The notes beneath the pieces are model-generated. The model made no database searches, was not told the DNA's origin, and saw only the letters and a program-made list of their open reading frames with translations. A DNA stretch of 39,859 nucleotides from a virus. Location: IMG/VR virus record IMGVR_UViG_3300028045_000037, positions 1-39,859 of that record; one strand, 5' to 3'. Of this stretch, positions 10,350 to 36,765 are shown piece by piece. Within the stretch, counting starts at the first letter, position 1. The number at the start of each line of letters is the position of its first letter. Made by a program: the position numbers and the translations under genes.

Positions 10350-11381
10350 ATGAAGTTTAATTTTATTAATGGCATTTCACATGACGAACCTGTAGACAAC
10401 AACGCTGCCATAATTGCGTTTGCGGATGCAGTCAATGAGACGCACGAAGCAGCGGCAACTGTTGCTGATGCTCTTGTCAACCTGGAAAATTTTGATGAGG
10501 CGTTTGAGAACCTAACCAACGTCCTTGCTACTATCGAACAGCACGGCGTATCGAAAGGCTTTATGGAGCTTATCGATGGCGATAGTGAACTGTCCAATGC
10601 GATCAATACGGAAATTCCTACCGTAGTTTCTGGTAGTAACGAAACTCAGGTCGCGACTATCGCAACCGAAGGTATCACTGACGCATTGATTACTGCATAC
10701 CAAACCGTGAAAAAGTTTCTCGTTGATCTCTGGAAGAAGATAGTTATTTTCTTTAAGAGCGTGATGGATCGAAACAAAGGAATTCTGCTCAAGGCTACCT
10801 CGTACAAAGACGGTATTCTAAAGGAAGAGCTGGATGAAGAAGCATTTGGTAAATCAAAAATGCGCATCCTTCCGTCCGGAGACTTTGACCGAATGGCCTC
10901 AGGGGTTACTGGACTTGTAGATGGGATGCAGACTCTGGTCGATAATACAGAAGAAGCAGACTTTGACTATCTTGAAACTGAATTTAAGTCAGTGGGGTAC
11001 ATCACAAAAGGAAACAAAGTATCCAAGAATGAAAAGGCCTGGGACCTTAAAACTGAGGAACTCAAAAAGCTTGGTTACAGTACTTCTGATGTGGCTGGCG
11101 TCTTGGACTCATGTATCGGCATGGTTAAACAAATGCGTCGATTGGACGAGTTGCAGAAGAAGATGGACTCGAATGTTAAGGCTGCTGTTAAGGGTTGCGA
11201 CGACTTAAGATCAGTTGGTGAAGCAGCTGCAGCCAAAAAACTTCAGAAAGAGATCGATGTCACAAAGAAAAATCTTGCTATCTTTGCAAAGGCTACAAGC
11301 AAAATTACCAGCATTCAGTATACGCTCTGTTCTATGGGCCTCAACCTTGCTGCTAAAGTTAAGAAAGCTAAAAACAAGTAG
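10350..11381 (+). CDS. putative processed inner-head protein with A-T-E|G motif, 343 aa
   Basis: AGGAGG lies 5 nt upstream of the ATG, and TATATTATG at 10290-10298 may be a promoter element. The first ~105 residues are acidic and Ala/Asn-rich, like a propeptide. A105-T106-E107-G108 follows and fits the (S/A/G)-X-E consensus cut by phiKZ-type prohead proteases. Directly after it comes an amphipathic to hydrophobic helical region (residues ~110-140, KKFLVDLWKKIVIFFKSV). The rest is Lys-rich and helical. A gene at 13652 has the same three-part N-terminus. I infer a packaged head protein matured by the phage protease; no direct homology is claimed. Confidence 0.6.
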   Translation: MKFNFINGISHDEPVDNNAAIIAFADAVNETHEAAATVADALVNLENFDEAFENLTNVLATIEQHGVSKGFMELIDGDSELSNAINTEIPTVVSGSNETQVATIATEGITDALITAYQTVKKFLVDLWKKIVIFFKSVMDRNKGILLKATSYKDGILKEELDEEAFGKSKMRILPSGDFDRMASGVTGLVDGMQTLVDNTEEADFDYLETEFKSVGYITKGNKVSKNEKAWDLKTEELKKLGYSTSDVAGVLDSCIGMVKQMRRLDELQKKMDSNVKAAVKGCDDLRSVGEAAAAKKLQKEIDVTKKNLAIFAKATSKITSIQYTLCSMGLNLAAKVKKAKNK

Positions 11382-11407: not shown

Positions 11408-11443
11408 GGTATCCAGCCAGGGCCGAGGCCCTGGCTGGATACC
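11408..11443 (+). terminator. strong hairpin terminator after the 10350 gene
   Basis: A perfect 17-bp GC-rich stem (11408-11424 pairing with 11427-11443) sits 26 nt after the stop at 11381. The U run lies upstream of the stem (11392-11398) rather than downstream. It separates the upstream operon from the noncoding unit that follows. Confidence 0.75.
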
Positions 11444-11467
11444 ACTTAAAGTTCATCCATTTTTATG

Positions 11468-11477
11468 TATATATTAC
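11468..11477 (+). promoter_or_regulatory. TATATATTAC promoter-like element
   Basis: The decamer matches the element at 23295-23304 exactly, and nine of ten positions recur at 30647 and on the minus strand at 24855. It resembles the A/T-rich TATATTAC-containing early promoters described for phiKZ. It lies just after a terminator and just before a gene-free, structured segment, so it probably drives the candidate RNA and perhaps the 12111 operon. Confidence 0.55.
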
Positions 11478-12046
11478 TATAGTGAAGCATTAGACTTTAT
11501 TTATTTAAGTCTCTGTTATTGTGGAAAGACTCACAAACGTTATTGTACCACCGAAGATGGTGGAGTAGTTTGGTACAAGCCTTAATATAAGGAGGGCCCA
11601 CTATGCACATATAATTCTGCGAACGATACTCAACTCTGATCTGGCTATAGTGGTTGCTCTTGAAGCAACTAAAATATTAAGACTTTCTGGGAGAAAGAGA
11701 CCAAATGATACAATACAATATACGTAACCCTTGAAGTATGTAAGAACTATAAAATGTAATGATCGACATGGGAACTGCTAGAGCCTGATGGTGGCACCTG
11801 AAGGGGGGACCTAGCACATACATTTTAAAACTTACACGCACATACTAGGGGATGACAATGGGACTATTAATTACGATAGTTATAGGATAGCTTAGGCAAT
11901 ACAATATATACTGTATACGCCTAAGATTGCATAACGGCGATCTTTATTCTTATACGCGTATGCGAGATCCTATATGTTGGGTTAGTGAAATGGGAAGCTA
12001 ACCCAACCTCCCCCTGTCCCTTCACGGGGCGATTATATTTTTTTTT
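11478..12046 (+). ncRNA. candidate large structured noncoding RNA (~570 nt)
   Basis: No reading frame of useful length covers this segment, yet it lies between a promoter-like motif and a terminator-like end. Many stems are visible: 11492-11497/11507-11512; 11543-11550/11571-11578 competing with 11548-11552/11559-11563; 11598-11604/11647-11653; 11653-11658/11664-11669; 11683-11688/11692-11697; an outer stem 11751-11758/11819-11826 enclosing 11776-11781/11811-11816; 11881-11888/11967-11974 enclosing 11891-11897/11919-11925; and 11976-11985/11998-12007. A ribosome-site-like AAGGAGGG (11589-11596) precedes a three-codon frame (11603-11614) whose start lies in one stem. Length and nesting recall GOLLD or ROOL RNAs of phages in scale only. 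Confidence 0.5.
12011..12046 (+). terminator. intrinsic terminator-like end of the noncoding unit
   Basis: A C-run at 12011-12014 pairs with a G-run at 12026-12029 to form a short hairpin, followed closely by a nine-base T tract at about 12038-12046. Together with the 10-bp stem just upstream (11976-11985/11998-12007) this looks like a rho-independent terminator ahead of the gene at 12111. Confidence 0.6.
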
Positions 12047-12110: not shown

Positions 12111-13649
12111 ATGGATAGCCTATACTCAGGAAAAAATTTATTTACCGGGTTAGAGACGGTGGACTTTCAAGGAATTAGCAAACCGGGATTGGAGATGGTG
12201 GACCTATTCAACAGTGTGATTGAAAAAAGAAACGCGGAGCCTACTGACGTTAAGCGTATAAAAAGGGTGCAGGCGGAACAATCTAATTTGAGGGAAGGAC
12301 TTACCCGCATCTGCAAACAGTACTTCAACATAGAACTGCGTGGTACCCATTTTTTTTCGTATCGGTGCGGGCAGTTTGCAATGCTACCATTTTTTGCAGA
12401 TAACTCCAGATTTGCCAATGAGATTATGGATGGCTACACTGGGACAGAGATGGTGGACGTATTGCCAGAGACTGCTGAAGAACTTGAAGAAGTAGCAGAA
12501 AAGTTTAATAAGAGCACTTGTATGGTAACTAAAAATAAAATGGTTGGATCCATCCAACGCGGCGAAATAACCTGCACGCTTTACTTCGATCCATTTACTG
12601 CGTTCCTCATAAAAGAGGTTGGAAATAAAAATACAAGAGCTTTGACGGCAGAAGAAATAACATCAATAGTACTACATGAGATAGGACACTTATTGATCGT
12701 TGTTGAGCACTGCGCGGATAAGTATCATCAAGCAATCGAGTATACTGCGGCAGTAGACCATTTTACAAAATATGCTAGTCTCAAAGAACAAATGAAGTAT
12801 GCAGTGACGCCAAAAGATACAAAGGATCTTCTGTCTAAAAAGCAAGAACAGACACTACAAGCAGCTCAACGAGCGGGCGATGAGGTTATCGCTAGGGAAT
12901 CTAATTTTCTCAGTAGGGCTATCGTAGTTTTTGGATCAGTATGTTTAACGTTGTATGTATCTATGATGTTTCTTTATCTTGCCGTAAATTTGGCAACTAG
13001 TAGAACAGTTATAAGTTTGGTAGAGACACTGAATGTGGTAACTAGAACTAAGAAAGGAAAGCGAAGCGACCAAATATTTACACTAAGAAATATGTTCTTA
13101 AATGAGCGTAACGCTGATGAATTCGCGGTAAGGCATGGATTTGGAGAGCACTTAATTGCGGCACTAAAAACCTTACACGACAATCACAAACTTGATTTCG
13201 TTGGTGCTAATCGTTACAATGCCGAGAGTACTCTTTTATGGCATCTTGCTAGTTTGCCCGATATGATATTAATTGTGGCCATGGGAGATAGCACCGGCGG
13301 CGGTGGGGTTTACGAGAAACAATTAGCCAGAGCGAGTAGGATAATACAGGGAGCCTTGAAGGCACTTAAAGAAGAGGGTTGCCCCGAGCCTCTAATGGAT
13401 CATTACATAAAACAATACGAGAACACCCTGTCCCAACAAGCCAAATTAAAAAAAGATCGCAAATTGATACGAGCGTCGGAAACCGTCTGGAACATCTTAG
13501 AGTATTGGGAAAGTCCTCAGTCTATAATTAAAATGATAGTATCCGGAAGGCTTACGGATGAGTACAGGAAACTTTTAGATGATGTAGATAAAATTAAAAC
13601 TAACCGACAATATTACCATGCTGCTAAATTCAAACAACTTGGGAGGTAA
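12111..13649 (+). CDS. putative membrane-anchored M48-like zinc metalloprotease, 512 aa
   Basis: The start has AAGGAGAG a few bases upstream. HEIGH at residues 189-193 within a helix (SIVLHEIGHLL) is the HExxH zinc motif. ERNAD at 332-336 fits the ExxxD third-ligand motif of M48 (HtpX/Ste24) peptidases. Between them lies a hydrophobic segment at about 265-295, long enough for one or two membrane passes, as M48 enzymes often have. The N-terminal 180 and C-terminal 150 residues are helical and unrecognised. The next gene follows after 2 nt, so the two are coupled. It may process virion or host membrane proteins. The catalytic motifs are visible; the M48 assignment is inference from motif order. 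Confidence 0.65.
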   Translation: MDSLYSGKNLFTGLETVDFQGISKPGLEMVDLFNSVIEKRNAEPTDVKRIKRVQAEQSNLREGLTRICKQYFNIELRGTHFFSYRCGQFAMLPFFADNSRFANEIMDGYTGTEMVDVLPETAEELEEVAEKFNKSTCMVTKNKMVGSIQRGEITCTLYFDPFTAFLIKEVGNKNTRALTAEEITSIVLHEIGHLLIVVEHCADKYHQAIEYTAAVDHFTKYASLKEQMKYAVTPKDTKDLLSKKQEQTLQAAQRAGDEVIARESNFLSRAIVVFGSVCLTLYVSMMFLYLAVNLATSRTVISLVETLNVVTRTKKGKRSDQIFTLRNMFLNERNADEFAVRHGFGEHLIAALKTLHDNHKLDFVGANRYNAESTLLWHLASLPDMILIVAMGDSTGGGGVYEKQLARASRIIQGALKALKEEGCPEPLMDHYIKQYENTLSQQAKLKKDRKLIRASETVWNILEYWESPQSIIKMIVSGRLTDEYRKLLDDVDKIKTNRQYYHAAKFKQLGR

Positions 13650-14623: not shown

Positions 14624-14659
14624 TATACAAGAGCAGTGGAATTCCACTGCTCTTGTATA
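14624..14659. terminator. perfect palindromic terminator between convergent genes
   Basis: An 18-bp perfect inverted repeat (14624-14641 with 14642-14659, essentially no spacer) lies between the rightward stop at 14620 and the leftward stop at 14668. An A-rich run precedes it on the + strand, giving a U-rich tail in the leftward direction. It likely terminates both operons. Confidence 0.8.
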
Positions 14660-24053: not shown

Positions 24054-24093
24054 GCATAGGGGCTGCTACTCGCAGGAGTAGCAGCCCCTATGC
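24054..24093. terminator. bidirectional hairpin between the HD and RNase H genes
   Basis: A perfect 17-bp stem (24054-24070 with 24077-24093) with a 6-nt loop lies between the rightward stop at 24015 and the leftward stop at 24111. Its position between convergent genes indicates shared termination. Confidence 0.8.
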
Positions 24094-24599: not shown

Positions 24600-25451
24600 T
24601 ATAGGCTCCAAGTTGTAAGCGGTTAGTAATTGTTTGTCCATATAATCATAGAAGATATTCATTAAATATGCATCCATCTCGACAAGAATATTAGGTGGTG
24701 GTGGGTTAGGTTTACCTCGGATATCATCTCACGACGGGTAGGACGATCGATGATATCCGAGGAACGGTTAACTACTAAAAGTGAGTCCTCGAAAGGTCGC
24801 TTAGCAAGGTTCGTAACCCGCTAAGTAGCTCTCAACTAGCATTCCGCAAAACAATAATATATACATGTAATCGAATGAAAGTGCAAAAACCCCCTGTTTT
24901 TAGCCAAAAAGTGCTAATTTTAGGCCTAAAAACAGGGGTGAAGTCGGAGTATCCTGGTGCCGCCATAGCAAGGCAGAGAAGCAAAGAAAGATAGCTGAAA
25001 ACCTGGGCAGAATAACAATAAAATTGCCCCCAAAATATGTTTTTTTTCGTCATTATCCGAGGAAGAGAGCCCCCGCAAGATAGGACCCAGACTGTCCCTA
25101 AAAAAGCAGCGACTGCCGAGTAAAATCGGCGAAAATAACGTCAAAAAAATCATTAAAATTGAGCCAAAAGTACCAAGAAGTTAGTGCGAGAATCTCCTGT
25201 AATGAAAGGATGTAAAAAAACAATATGGCCTACCATTTATATGGGGACCCCCCCCATGTAAGAACGCTAAATTATTAAACTATAGGGAAAAAGTACTTGT
25301 TTCTGCCCATAATGGAGTCCCTATTTCCGCTGTTATCTGCCCTCGTTCCGCTGTCAAACATTCGCTACGACAGCATGTAAGTCCCTACATCTTATACGGG
25401 TCTTTGTGCCCCCTAACCCCATCAAATTTACATGCATGGAGAGGAGTTAAT
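24600..25451. promoter_or_regulatory. long gene-free divergent region with hairpins
   Basis: About 850 nt between RNase HI (-) and the gene at 25452 (+) hold no credible gene. Visible structures are a 14-bp stem (24715-24728/24749-24762), a two-part hairpin (24800-24805/24820-24825 with an inner 4-bp stem), a 13-bp stem (24891-24903/24926-24938), and a G/C hairpin (25241-25246/25252-25257). The first two lie in the RNase HI leader. From about 24880 to 25200 the + strand becomes A-rich and purine-biased, unlike the flanking genes. An origin, a regulatory leader or an unrecognised RNA are possible. Confidence 0.45.
24855..24863 (-). promoter_or_regulatory. TATATATTA promoter-like element for RNase HI
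   Basis: Read on the minus strand the sequence is TATATATTA, preceded by ATG as at 11465-11467. It lies about 255 nt upstream of the chosen RNase HI start and upstream of two strong hairpins, implying a structured leader. Confidence 0.5.
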
Positions 25452-26474
25452 ATGATTAAACCGAACAATAAAGTCCGTGAGAGTGTTGTTGATGACAGTA
25501 TGTACGACACTCTTTTGTTATGCCGACAAGCATCACCAGTAGTGGATGCCTATATAGAAAACAAAGAGTATCTGTCCCACATAGAAGAGGACGATGTGAC
25601 GTATAATCTCCTTTTGCAGGAAGCAACCACCATTCTACTTGACGAGATACATGAAATGGGGGTGGAATTTACCTGCGAGCTGTCAGAAATATACGAAAAC
25701 ATATTCAGAGTAGAGCTTGTTGCCCTACTTAGGGTTAGATTTGATGGTGATTCTTTCCTAAAAGTGCTCGGGGTGCTTGCAGAGACCACAGTACAGCGAA
25801 TAGAATCCTACCTAACGACCGCAATAGATGAGGATGAGCACGACGAAGTGCTGAATGCAACCATAAAGTTAGTACATGAGAGCATGCCGTCCTTCCATAC
25901 ATGGAAAACTTTACTGGATTACCAAGATCTAACCCTAAGTAACCATAAACTTACCGCACATTTGTCTGCTGTGCTGGCTAAATACCATAATAGTCCGGAC
26001 GATACTGTTGTAGACTCGTTCAATACTGCTAATGTTGGTGCGATACTGGCTAAAATGGAGCAAGAACATGGCTTGTATGAGCACAACATCAGGTTAGCGG
26101 CGAAGAATGACCTGACACTCAACCGAATAGAGCTATTTTCGACCATAGATACCTTCCATGGCGACCTAGCAAGGCACCCCGAGGTACCATTCCTTGCCGG
26201 AACGGTGCTGCCGGAGCATATTCTAGCACACCATAGGAAGACACAACCGCATCATATCGAATATTACGTCGAAAACGAGGATGAGGAGGTAACTGTAACC
26301 GCTATCACTACCATAATTGCTGCTATGGTGTCGGATTCAAGCATAACAGACCACAAAGTTGAGGTAGAAAAGCTTTTTTCTACGGAAGTTGCGATCACTG
26401 ATGCGGTACGTACCAAGGCATTGCAACTATCACGCATACTTATACCAGCATCTACCATAAGGATCGTAACATGA
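25452..26474 (+). CDS. hypothetical protein, 340 aa, coupled to the RNA polymerase fragment
   Basis: GAGAGGAG lies 6 nt upstream of the ATG at 25452; the frame is open to a GTG at 25404 without a better ribosome site. The protein is acidic and helical, with a His/Glu-rich segment near residues 265-285 (HHRKTQPHHIEYYVENEDEE). No domain is recognised. Its last codons overlap the next start (ATGA), so translation is coupled to the beta-prime-like gene. That coupling suggests it could be an unrecognised RNA polymerase component or partner, but no polymerase motif is visible in it. Confidence 0.65.
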   Translation: MIKPNNKVRESVVDDSMYDTLLLCRQASPVVDAYIENKEYLSHIEEDDVTYNLLLQEATTILLDEIHEMGVEFTCELSEIYENIFRVELVALLRVRFDGDSFLKVLGVLAETTVQRIESYLTTAIDEDEHDEVLNATIKLVHESMPSFHTWKTLLDYQDLTLSNHKLTAHLSAVLAKYHNSPDDTVVDSFNTANVGAILAKMEQEHGLYEHNIRLAAKNDLTLNRIELFSTIDTFHGDLARHPEVPFLAGTVLPEHILAHHRKTQPHHIEYYVENEDEEVTVTAITTIIAAMVSDSSITDHKVEVEKLFSTEVAITDAVRTKALQLSRILIPASTIRIVT

Positions 26475-27904
26475 AGCTCACTCAACCACAAATAGACTTC
26501 TTAGTAAAGTTCCGAGAGCGGTTAGGGACAAAAGAATTCCTTATAGCGACGTTTAACGTTCTCTATACCCGGCCCGTTGTTGATATACCCAGCATAGAGG
26601 AGGCCAGGAGTACATCTGGCTGTACTGTGGGCAAGTACGCTGAAGCCACGGAGATCACTAAGCCGGCCATAGGAACAGACGCTGCCCCGCATCCACCAGT
26701 GCCGGCGATACCAGGAGACATAATTTTTCTCCAGTCGGGGGAAGATCGGTGTTACGGGTACCTTGATGATGTGGCAGTAGACGAGGATCTCACTTACGTT
26801 GTAAGGTTCTTGGCCTCAGAACTCACGGAATCACCCCTATCCATCGAAGACACGTTCACAATAAAGACCGGGATGATCAATAGTTACAACCGATCCGATG
26901 AGCTCACTTCAGTTGGACGGTTTGTTTTAAACCAGGTAGTCCTTGGATCCACACTCGGAGAAGTCATCTCGTACGTTAACGAGCAATGGGATCAGCGAAA
27001 ATTGGAAAAGACTGTAGCTAAGCTTGTTTTGGAGGATAAGGTGTCCATAGCTCAGTTTGAAACATTCATGGATCATGTATATTTCTTAGGACACTTCACC
27101 AAACTGAATGCACCATCGTCAACTCCACGCTCGTTGTACACGGATCCAAGGATAGCAAAGAGAAAAGAGGAACTTATAGAAGAGAACAGGGCAAACCTCC
27201 ATGATCCACTGGTGATTAGGCGAATAGAGCAGGAACTTATTGCAATGGATAGGAAGTTTCTTGAGGGAGATGAGGCTACCACAGTATATGAGGCACAGGG
27301 CTCTAAGACTATAGAGGTTCATAGAAAAAAAATGTTCTTATCCGTTGGAGGTATACAGGCATTCTCGGAGGATCCATCCGAATTTGAGTTCATAGAGAAC
27401 TCTTTAGAGGAGGGGTGGGAGGTAAGTGACTTTCATGTCAGGGCAAATGAGACAAGAAAGAGTATCTATGGCCGTGGGAAGGAGACGGCGAAGGGTGGCG
27501 AGCAGACTAAGTTCATTCTTCGCATATTCCAAGACTTAGAGGTAGTTGCTGACGACTGTGGGACTACTCGAGGCTTAGAAACCTTCTTGAAGAAAGAGGA
27601 CATACCCGGATTACTCGGAAGAACTATAGTTATCGGGGCGAAGTCGCAACCACTGGATGAAAAATTAGCAAACAGCTTAGTTAATAAAGTTGTTAAGCTT
27701 AGGAGTCCAATGTATTGCGAACAACATGGAGGGATATGTTATAAGTGTACCCGTGATACCTACGAAAAAATAGGTACTGGTTCAATAAGTATGAGTGCGA
27801 TGGAGGTAACTTCCACGTTCCTTAGCTTATCCATGAAATCAGTCCATGGTACCGTAATCAAATCTAAAACTATAGATGTACTTGATTACATAGTTGATAT
27901 GTGA
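26471..27904 (+). CDS. RNA polymerase beta-prime-like subunit fragment (bridge helix to trigger loop), 477 aa
   Basis: The start overlaps the previous stop by 4 nt. From residue ~330 the sequence follows bacterial RpoC: a bridge-helix-like segment (NETRKSIYGRGKETAKGG), DCGT with C363, and C416-x6-C423-x2-C426, the four ligands of the second zinc site (E. coli C814, C888, C895, C898). MEVTSTFLSLSMKSVHG then takes the place of the GEPGTQLTMRTFH trigger-helix segment. The frame stops 20 residues later, so the rest of the trigger loop, jaw and C-terminal parts are missing. The catalytic NADFDGD part is also absent. In phiKZ-like phages beta-prime is split over two genes; here the break seems to fall inside the trigger loop. 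Confidence 0.8.
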   Translation: MKLTQPQIDFLVKFRERLGTKEFLIATFNVLYTRPVVDIPSIEEARSTSGCTVGKYAEATEITKPAIGTDAAPHPPVPAIPGDIIFLQSGEDRCYGYLDDVAVDEDLTYVVRFLASELTESPLSIEDTFTIKTGMINSYNRSDELTSVGRFVLNQVVLGSTLGEVISYVNEQWDQRKLEKTVAKLVLEDKVSIAQFETFMDHVYFLGHFTKLNAPSSTPRSLYTDPRIAKRKEELIEENRANLHDPLVIRRIEQELIAMDRKFLEGDEATTVYEAQGSKTIEVHRKKMFLSVGGIQAFSEDPSEFEFIENSLEEGWEVSDFHVRANETRKSIYGRGKETAKGGEQTKFILRIFQDLEVVADDCGTTRGLETFLKKEDIPGLLGRTIVIGAKSQPLDEKLANSLVNKVVKLRSPMYCEQHGGICYKCTRDTYEKIGTGSISMSAMEVTSTFLSLSMKSVHGTVIKSKTIDVLDYIVDM

Positions 27905-28795: not shown

Positions 28796-28834
28796 TATTA
28801 CTCATGTAGGCGATGATCGCCTACATGAGTAATA
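28796..28834. terminator. bidirectional hairpin between convergent genes
   Basis: A perfect 19-bp inverted repeat (28796-28814 with 28816-28834) overlaps the end of the 28058 gene region and precedes the leftward stop at 28859. It likely terminates both genes. Confidence 0.8.
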
Positions 28835-29308: not shown

Positions 29309-29758
29309 AGTCATGCTCCTCTTTAAAAAATAAGTTCCGTCGTTATACTATGTGTAAACCGGACCTCGATTTTGTAGTAGTTTTCTCGGAATTAGTATCC
29401 GAGCGATGACTAATTAGGGGGTTGTTGCTATGGCCTGTAGCTACAATCCTACATCGAGCCAATTCCCGATTGTCGGGTCGTGTATTTTATCTAAGCTCCC
29501 GCAAAACTCTAGACATGGATCGGTAGGTTCTCCTGAACGAAGCTACGTCGTTGTTGTTACGCACGGGTTCGTGACAGGTTTTGCCAGTATTACGCTTACT
29601 TAGATTGTTTGTGTATGTTTTCTTACCCCCCGGTAAGATAGTTTATGATGGGTACACGACCCGACCCGAGTCAAGTTATTGATGTCAGAGACCGGGTCCT
29701 TAACTGGGCTCGGTCTTTCCGATATGATTACATCTTTTTTATTTAAAGGAGGTTTACT
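29309..29758 (+). ncRNA. structured noncoding region before the endolysin gene
   Basis: This 450-nt gap shows dense pairing on the + strand: 29385-29390/29398-29403; 29465-29469/29473-29477; a 7-bp stem with a CCCC loop (29621-29627/29632-29638); 29690-29694/29711-29715; and a long-range perfect 13-bp pair (29472-29484 with 29653-29665) that competes with the local 29465 hairpin. A 57-codon frame (29430-29603) exists but lies across these stems. It may be a regulatory leader of the endolysin gene or a separate RNA. The strand is inferred from the downstream gene. Confidence 0.4.
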
Positions 29759-30401: not shown

Positions 30402-30488
30402 ATCACATCTATAGAAAAATCCATGGTTGCGCCTTGCAGCATATTGTGTAATAAAAGTAATGGGTTAGTTGTTGCTAATTCCCCCTAA
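30402..30488 (+). CDS. possible 28-aa peptide with non-ATG (ATC) start
   Basis: A textbook ribosome site (AAGGAGG, 30388-30394) lies 39 nt after the endolysin gene, but no ATG, GTG or TTG follows at normal spacing. An ATC at 30402 opens 28 codons ending at the base of the terminator. An internal ATG at 30423 is too far from the site. It may use a rare start codon, or be the remnant of a lost gene. The peptide is not hydrophobic, so a small holin is unlikely. Confidence 0.2.
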   Translation: MTSIEKSMVAPCSILCNKSNGLVVANSP

Positions 30489-30522
30489 GGACCAAGGGCA
30501 GTATACTGCCCTTGGTCCTTAG
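30485..30522 (+). terminator. strong intrinsic terminator after the lysis region
   Basis: A perfect 19-bp palindrome (30485-30503 with 30504-30522) is followed directly by TATTTTTG, giving the classic rho-independent layout on the + strand. Confidence 0.85.
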
Positions 30523-36055: not shown

Positions 36056-36096
36056 AAGATGTTATAGGATAACTCATACATGAGGAGGTGAGTACT

Positions 36097-36765
36097 ATGA
36101 ACGTGTCTGAGAAACGAAAAGCTATAATGCAGCACTTAGCTAAATGGTATGATAAATTAGATCCTACCGGAAAAAATAGAGAGCACCTTCATAGAAGACT
36201 CTCTGCTATGACTGATGGACAGTTCACGGAATACATGGATAATCTTAGAAGCGCCAAAGAACAGATACATTTAGTGCGCCCAAATATGACAAAGGGTCTT
36301 ACTATAAAACAACTGATGGACATTATGGAAGAACTCGGAGTTGTTTTATATCATCGAATTTGGGTAACTGATGATGCTACCGGAATCAAGTACCTGACTA
36401 ATAAAAAGTATCCAGTAGTACAAATGTCTGTGCGAAGAGCGCAACAATTCCTCGATGAAAAAATATCAATACCAGAATCTGACACTCTTATAAGTGGGAT
36501 GGACGACCAAGTAGTTGGTGCGGACAGGGCCGCCGGAATATCCAATCCCGAACTACACTCTCTACACGCAAGCGGACTTGACATCACCTCTCTGGAACTA
36601 CTTAGAGTGAGGGGAGGGGATCAAACGGCTTACTCGGATCTTAAACGACAAATAGAAGAGACCGGGGTTGGAGAACTAGGATCACTCGGCCATCACACAA
36701 GAGCGAAGTCCCCAATAATATTATCTATGTTTCTTAGAGCCATGCATATAGATAGTAATATGTAA
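36097..36765 (+). CDS. RNA polymerase beta-like subunit, C-terminal fragment, 222 aa
   Basis: AGGAGG sits 8 nt upstream of the ATG at 36097; a GTG three codons earlier overlaps it. After a helical N-terminus (~55 residues), LVRPNMTKGLTIKQLMDIMEELG mirrors the RpoB stretch NPLGVPSRMNIGQ...HLG. YPVVQMSVRRAQQFLDEKI takes the place of the VTVGYMYMLKLNHLVDDKI strand-helix. PELHSLHASGLDITSLELL matches the order of [20 protein letters not shown] near the RpoB C-terminus. The lysine-containing catalytic segment (RHGNKG) and everything N-terminal to it are absent. The match is by pattern and order of three blocks, not an alignment score. It is probably one subunit of a split phage RNA polymerase. Confidence 0.65.
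   Translation: MNVSEKRKAIMQHLAKWYDKLDPTGKNREHLHRRLSAMTDGQFTEYMDNLRSAKEQIHLVRPNMTKGLTIKQLMDIMEELGVVLYHRIWVTDDATGIKYLTNKKYPVVQMSVRRAQQFLDEKISIPESDTLISGMDDQVVGADRAAGISNPELHSLHASGLDITSLELLRVRGGDQTAYSDLKRQIEETGVGELGSLGHHTRAKSPIILSMFLRAMHIDSNM

Follow-up and report, generated by a model that had tools for sequence, protein, structure and literature searches.

A candidate early transcription unit for a mostly non-coding RNA in a variable gene slot of a phiKZ-like jumbo phage

We report the analysis of a gene-free segment in the DNA of a jumbo phage, which we read as a self-contained early unit that makes a mostly non-coding RNA and occupies a variable cargo slot, a reading to which we give about an even chance of being right. 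The promoter, the absence of genes, the slot and the fold at the 3' end are the parts supported by the sequence. That the segment is a separate and mostly non-coding transcription unit had been claimed in a preliminary description of this DNA, and this is well supported, the segment having a promoter of its own as well as a likely 3' end.

To our knowledge, phiKZ-like phages have so far yielded very few non-coding RNAs. The junction at which the unit lies, between the genes for an internal head protein and a phrog_2767 protein, is one at which relatives keep differing early-promoter cassettes, several with ORFs of 3–62 codons, and it represents a compact hunting ground for micropeptides and RNAs of early host take-over that escape annotation pipelines. 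Furthermore, the promoter matrix described below provides a way to find further such cassettes.

The phage and the genes flanking the segment

The source fragment, a 39.9 kb stretch of viral DNA analysed at its full length and called the window here, has gene matches to phiKZ-like jumbo-phage families. Its virion proteins include matches to phrog_3248, phrog_3196 and phrog_3239, and it also encodes a phiKZ-type DNA polymerase, RNase H, a GroEL-like protein, an endolysin, two subunits of the topoisomerase II/gyrase type and, at 26471–27904 and 36088–36765, subunits of the phage multisubunit RNA polymerase. Identity to named phages is ~20–27% for the homologue of phiKZ gp87 and ~25% for the DNA polymerase; the phage is a deep-branching phiKZ-like jumbo phage. 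The segment sits in a 729-nt gap between two genes, given here as context:

10350–11381, + strand: upstream gene, phiKZ-type internal head protein (Pfam PF12699 phiKZ_IP, 34 bits against a cut-off of 27)
12111–13649, + strand: downstream gene, phrog_2767 family, 512 aa, virion-type

By its position and a weak similarity the 12111 gene appears to be gp84-like, corresponding to gp84 of phiKZ. Its product carries a HEIGH motif at residues ~177–206 and a weak SprT-like match that falls below the cut-off (E 0.2), which makes it a possible metalloprotease-like protein of the virion.

The probable early promoter

The motif that was first described as promoter-like is very probably an early promoter, and its conserved sequence extends well beyond the core:

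11448–11487, + strand: extended early promoter with a TTCAT box, a T-rich spacer, the core TATATATTAC (11468–11477) and a downstream TATAGTG

A weight matrix built only on one relative, G027, from 42 intergenic promoter-like sites was scored at all positions of the window on both strands, and 11468 on the + strand ranked first with 20.9 bits, the next position reaching 16.6. The training sites were themselves chosen by their core, so that only the score of the flanks is fully independent of the motif; these flanks alone fall in the top 0.1% (p ~0.001). The sequence GTATATATTAY occurs at four sites in the window, all of them intergenic, against 0.1 expected, with ~11% of the window taken as intergenic on a coding fraction that rests partly on our own choice of ORFs.

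The early promoter of phiKZ is TATATTAC and those of 201phi2-1 and N1M2 continue with GTG (PMC7058600); across the phiKZ group the early promoters have an AT-rich core of ~10 nt near -10 (PMC7598289). The unit described here shares with phiKZ early units the TATATTAC-type core, the downstream GTG of 201phi2-1 and N1M2, the AT-rich stretch of ~10 nt near -10, conserved flanks, an intergenic position and a phage with a multisubunit RNA polymerase. It differs from them in having no ordinary gene and in lying inside a block of virion genes.

Dozens of intergenic copies of the extended motif are found in G027, mostly before ORFs, and one directly precedes a tRNA-like sequence. At G027:C1:213957-214077 an early promoter is followed by the tRNA-like sequence (TAAGTAGCTCAGCAGGTCAGAGCATTCGGATC) and then by a second early promoter.

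Predicted ends of the transcript

The ends of the transcript are predictions, its start being placed at 11484 from a core centred near -10:

11484–12046, + strand: predicted early RNA of ~563 nt, from promoter position to T-run, essentially non-coding, no ORF
12012–12046, + strand: probable transcription end, a 6-bp hairpin (12012–12029) and T9 (12038–12046)
11408–11443, no strand assigned: perfect 17-bp palindrome with a 2-nt loop, at the end of the upstream gene

No T-run in the window is longer than this T9. As a U-tract terminator, which had been proposed, the site has only a weak hairpin, and 8 nt separate the stem from the T-run. The hairpin at 11408–11443, said to frame the segment, is real and its 17 bp are perfect, but it goes with the upstream gene, whose end it marks, and we rejected it as part of the RNA because six such palindromes stand at gene ends in the window and this is one of them.

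These six near-perfect palindromes (1375–1410, 11408–11443, 14624–14659, 24054–24093, 28796–28834 and 30485–30522) have stems of 16–19 and loops of 0–4, are intergenic and follow gene ends in six cases out of six. Relatives have hairpins at the equivalent gene ends, and the palindromes are possibly the late terminators of the phage or signals for RNA 3' ends.

Coding potential and the mini-ORF

The description of the segment as gene-free holds: besides the tail of one frame that overlaps from upstream, the gap has no ORF of more than 61 aa, and the 61-aa frame at the start of the segment begins upstream of the 11408–11443 hairpin. Hidden coding was looked for with 31 six-frame peptides of the segment, which gave no tblastn match below 0.1, and with its five longest frames, which gave no Pfam match. 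What the segment does contain is a ribosome-binding site:

11588–11595, + strand: perfect 8-nt Shine-Dalgarno sequence TAAGGAGG
11603–11614, + strand: mini-ORF of three codons, AUG CAC AUA UAA, 7 nt from the Shine-Dalgarno sequence

In match and spacing this site is as good as those of real genes, and, as the preliminary description had it, it opens only the three-codon frame at 11603. The start codon was also said to lie in a stem; the region of the AUG can indeed pair with 11647–11653, but the stability of this stem is at the level of chance (z -0.5). Some 430 nt of transcript, including its best-folded module, follow the stop codon. With the only strong Shine-Dalgarno start opening three codons and the best-folded part lying downstream of it, the transcript itself is the likeliest product.

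The same site is the starting point for a serious rival, in which the unit is a micro-ORF messenger or a decayed cargo gene, the minigene causing peptidyl-tRNA drop-off or only a regulatory frame being left. The minigene bar of phage lambda is a mini-ORF whose final codon is AUA, as is that of the frame found here. Toxic minigenes combine a strong Shine-Dalgarno sequence with a very short ORF and a UAA stop (PMC8708949), and the unit has all three of these sequence features. It departs from minigenes of two or few codons in that a frame of three codons, its start in a possible stem (if one of chance-level stability), is followed by a long, structured 3' tail; for a decayed gene, there is no open stretch that would point to one recently broken. 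We return to this rival with the cassettes of the relatives, which bear on it directly.

Folding of the RNA

Folding energies were compared with those of dinucleotide shuffles, and one part of the RNA stands out:

11876–12008, + strand: 3' structured module, a three-way junction and a hairpin (z -4.6, 0/200 shuffles)

The junction is closed by the helix 11881–11888/11967–11974 and the hairpin of the module is formed by 11976–11985/11998–12007. The RNA as a whole reaches z ~-2 (6/200 shuffles), while its 5' two thirds (11484–11850) fold no better than shuffles, with z -0.1 for the first 207 nt and a chance-level value for the middle 160 nt as well; structure beyond chance is restricted to the 3' third, 11876–12008. 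Both of the nested pairs of helices described earlier are present, but that at 11751–11826 is at the level of chance (z -0.9), and the count of nine stems is unremarkable in an RNA of 560 nt. The reverse strand of the segment also beats its shuffles (z -3.7), and folding energy alone can therefore not assign the strand. The longest antisense complement to other parts of the window is 13 nt, equal to that of shuffled RNA.

GOLLD and ROOL are phage RNAs that lie near tRNA islands and form RNA-only cages (PMC12286853), and the segment had been likened to them. It resembles them as a large phage-borne RNA (~560 nt) with nested helices. The proposed check with Rfam covariance models was run, and cmscan, at the gathering threshold and at E 10, matched no family, GOLLD and ROOL included; neither tRNA nor tmRNA was found in the window, so there is no tRNA island, the promoter is of the early class and most of the length, some two thirds, is without excess structure. 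Kinship with GOLLD or ROOL is not supported, and it is very improbable indeed that the segment is a giant ornate RNA of this type assembling into an RNA-only cage.

Homologues of the RNA

By blastn, nothing of the segment but its promoter recurs in relatives. Matches to promoters or by chance were all that was returned by blastn of the segment against phages, against 33 + 24 + 11 phiKZ-like records and, with word size 7, against all loci, and by a search for one exact 23-mer in IMG/VR. The 3' module was also made into a covariance model, which rests on a single sequence and so has little reach; it found nothing in 45 loci or 22 records. These searches may miss very close relatives of the window, but with no homologue in them and a model of such short reach there is neither covariation nor proof of selection on the RNA. 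What led to the clade of relatives itself was the alignment of RNA polymerases and of gp88-like proteins (gp88 identity up to 50%); scanning with one protein at a time, namely the 512-aa, 343-aa and GyrB proteins, retrieved none of them.

The slot in related phages

Two relatives, G027 and G028, share synteny with the window over most of its length, and at the place of the RNA their gaps measure 2 nt and 110 nt, respectively, the latter with one gene-end hairpin, so the RNA unit is absent from the closest syntenic relatives. An early promoter is found at the junction, or one gene from it, in 8 of the 11 relatives scored (L187 and L201 being unscored and near-duplicate contigs uncounted), where it ranks 1–5 among ~42,000 positions per locus; G027, on which the matrix was trained, is one of the eight. 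Most of these slots have tiny ORFs and ends with a hairpin or terminator:

L200, directly upstream of the phrog_2767 gene: early promoter, 16-codon ORF (MNVVAILIGFGGGIGK), terminator
L184, directly upstream of the phrog_2767 gene: early promoter, 33-codon ORF, terminator
L199, directly upstream of the phrog_2767 gene: promoter, 34-codon ORF, 149-aa P-loop-like protein, 30-codon ORF, terminator
G027, one gene further upstream: promoter, 9-codon ORF, terminator
L174, one gene further upstream: promoter, 62-codon ORF, terminator
L175 and L176, one gene further upstream: promoter before an ordinary gene
L173, contig without a visible phrog_2767 gene: promoter, 756-nt unit, 44-codon ORF

In L178, L179 and G028 no promoter was found in the slot examined, and G028 has an early promoter just past its phrog_2767 gene. 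The contents of the slot thus vary among relatives while the phrog_2767 gene stays, and, with other tiny early genes held in the same place, the unit looks like swappable early cargo. The cassettes of G027 (L172), L174, L184, L199, L200 and L173 are candidates for unannotated early micropeptides, their ORFs being often hydrophobic.

The ORFs of 9, 16, 33, 34, 44 and 62 codons in these sister slots follow good Shine-Dalgarno sites. It is this likeness of the sister cassettes to micro-ORF genes, and mostly to tiny protein genes, that makes the minigene or decayed gene a serious rival, as the product of the unit could accordingly be a peptide or what is left of a gene; on balance we consider it unlikely, though by no means negligible.

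The relatives also bear on a further alternative, in which the early promoter reads on into the 12111 gene, the segment serves this gene as a long 5' leader or attenuator, and read-through is under the control of the 3' module and the T9. The unit is co-directional with this gene and directly upstream of it, and an identical 12-nt sequence, TAATATAAGGAG, precedes both the mini-ORF and the 12111 start. There is precedent in the leader of phiKZ p40, for which such a role has been proposed: Grad-seq of phiKZ yielded a 5'-UTR-p40 RNA of 180 nt and a 3'-UTR-PHIKZ298 RNA of 100 nt, one of the two being thought to come from termination before a gene (PMC8545117). Like the RNA described here, both are non-coding, structured and encoded by a phage of the phiKZ type, but the present RNA is ~3 times longer and has its own early promoter, a strong Shine-Dalgarno sequence and a mini-ORF. 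In G027 the homologue of the 12111 gene lies 2 nt from its neighbour and has no such leader, and elsewhere the slot changes its contents while the gene persists. Virion genes of the phiKZ type are, moreover, normally late. A leader or attenuator consequently seems improbable to us.

Two observations concern single relatives. The 756-nt unit of L173 has z -7.3 and its gene-poor 3' part of 371 nt has z -5.5; homology of the window RNA to this unit was considered and rejected, as 77 of 200 shuffles matched or beat its Smith-Waterman score. L199 (JAFVPU010000150.1) comes from a sheep-colon MAG of the GTDB collection that is binned as Clostridia, and the presence of a contig of this phage clade in a bacterial MAG is either contamination or a hint to the host.

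A model for the unit

In the reading that we prefer, the self-contained early unit, the virion RNA polymerase would start at the extended TATATATTAC promoter, near 11484, and make an early RNA of ~560 nt, terminating near 12046, where the hairpin and T9 stand ahead of the 12111 gene. This RNA would be non-coding except for the three-codon mini-ORF, with a stable three-way-junction module as its 3' end, and would fill an early-cargo slot into which relatives put other cassettes of promoter, mini-gene and terminator. The likeliest role of this transcript, which would be stabilised at its 3' end and engage ribosomes through its ribosome-binding site, is in early host take-over or in the control of phage genes, exerted by the RNA itself. 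Transcription, the exact ends, the engagement of ribosomes and the function of the RNA are what we infer. We count against this explanation the lack of an RNA homologue, the unstructured 5' two thirds, the z of -3.7 for the reverse strand and the weak terminator hairpin.

More speculatively, the unit could represent a new class of early phage RNA. The injected polymerase would transcribe it from the slot for swappable early cassettes that the clade keeps within its block of virion genes, and the RNA, stabilised at its 3' end and equipped with a perfect ribosome-binding site and a minigene of three codons, would capture ribosomes or a tRNA during the first minutes of an infection; this we regard as a long shot.

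Other gene-free segments of the window

A second gene-free segment, at 29330–29745 (+ strand), lies upstream of the endolysin gene 29759 and is better folded than 11484–12046. Its 416 nt have an MFE of -140 kcal/mol (z -4.6, 0/100 shuffles), in a fold with a long-range helix, GGGUCGUGUA/UACACGACCC, and a terminal hairpin, AGACCGGGUCC..GGGCUCGGUCUUU; it has no Rfam match above the cut-off and no DNA relative among 14 records of the clade. A further gap, of 726 nt at 24678–25403, contains a minus-strand early promoter (24864), behind which the RNase H gene has a structured leader of 185 nt (z ~-3). The rest of this gap, 24870–25395, is gene-free, with z ~-3 on both strands.
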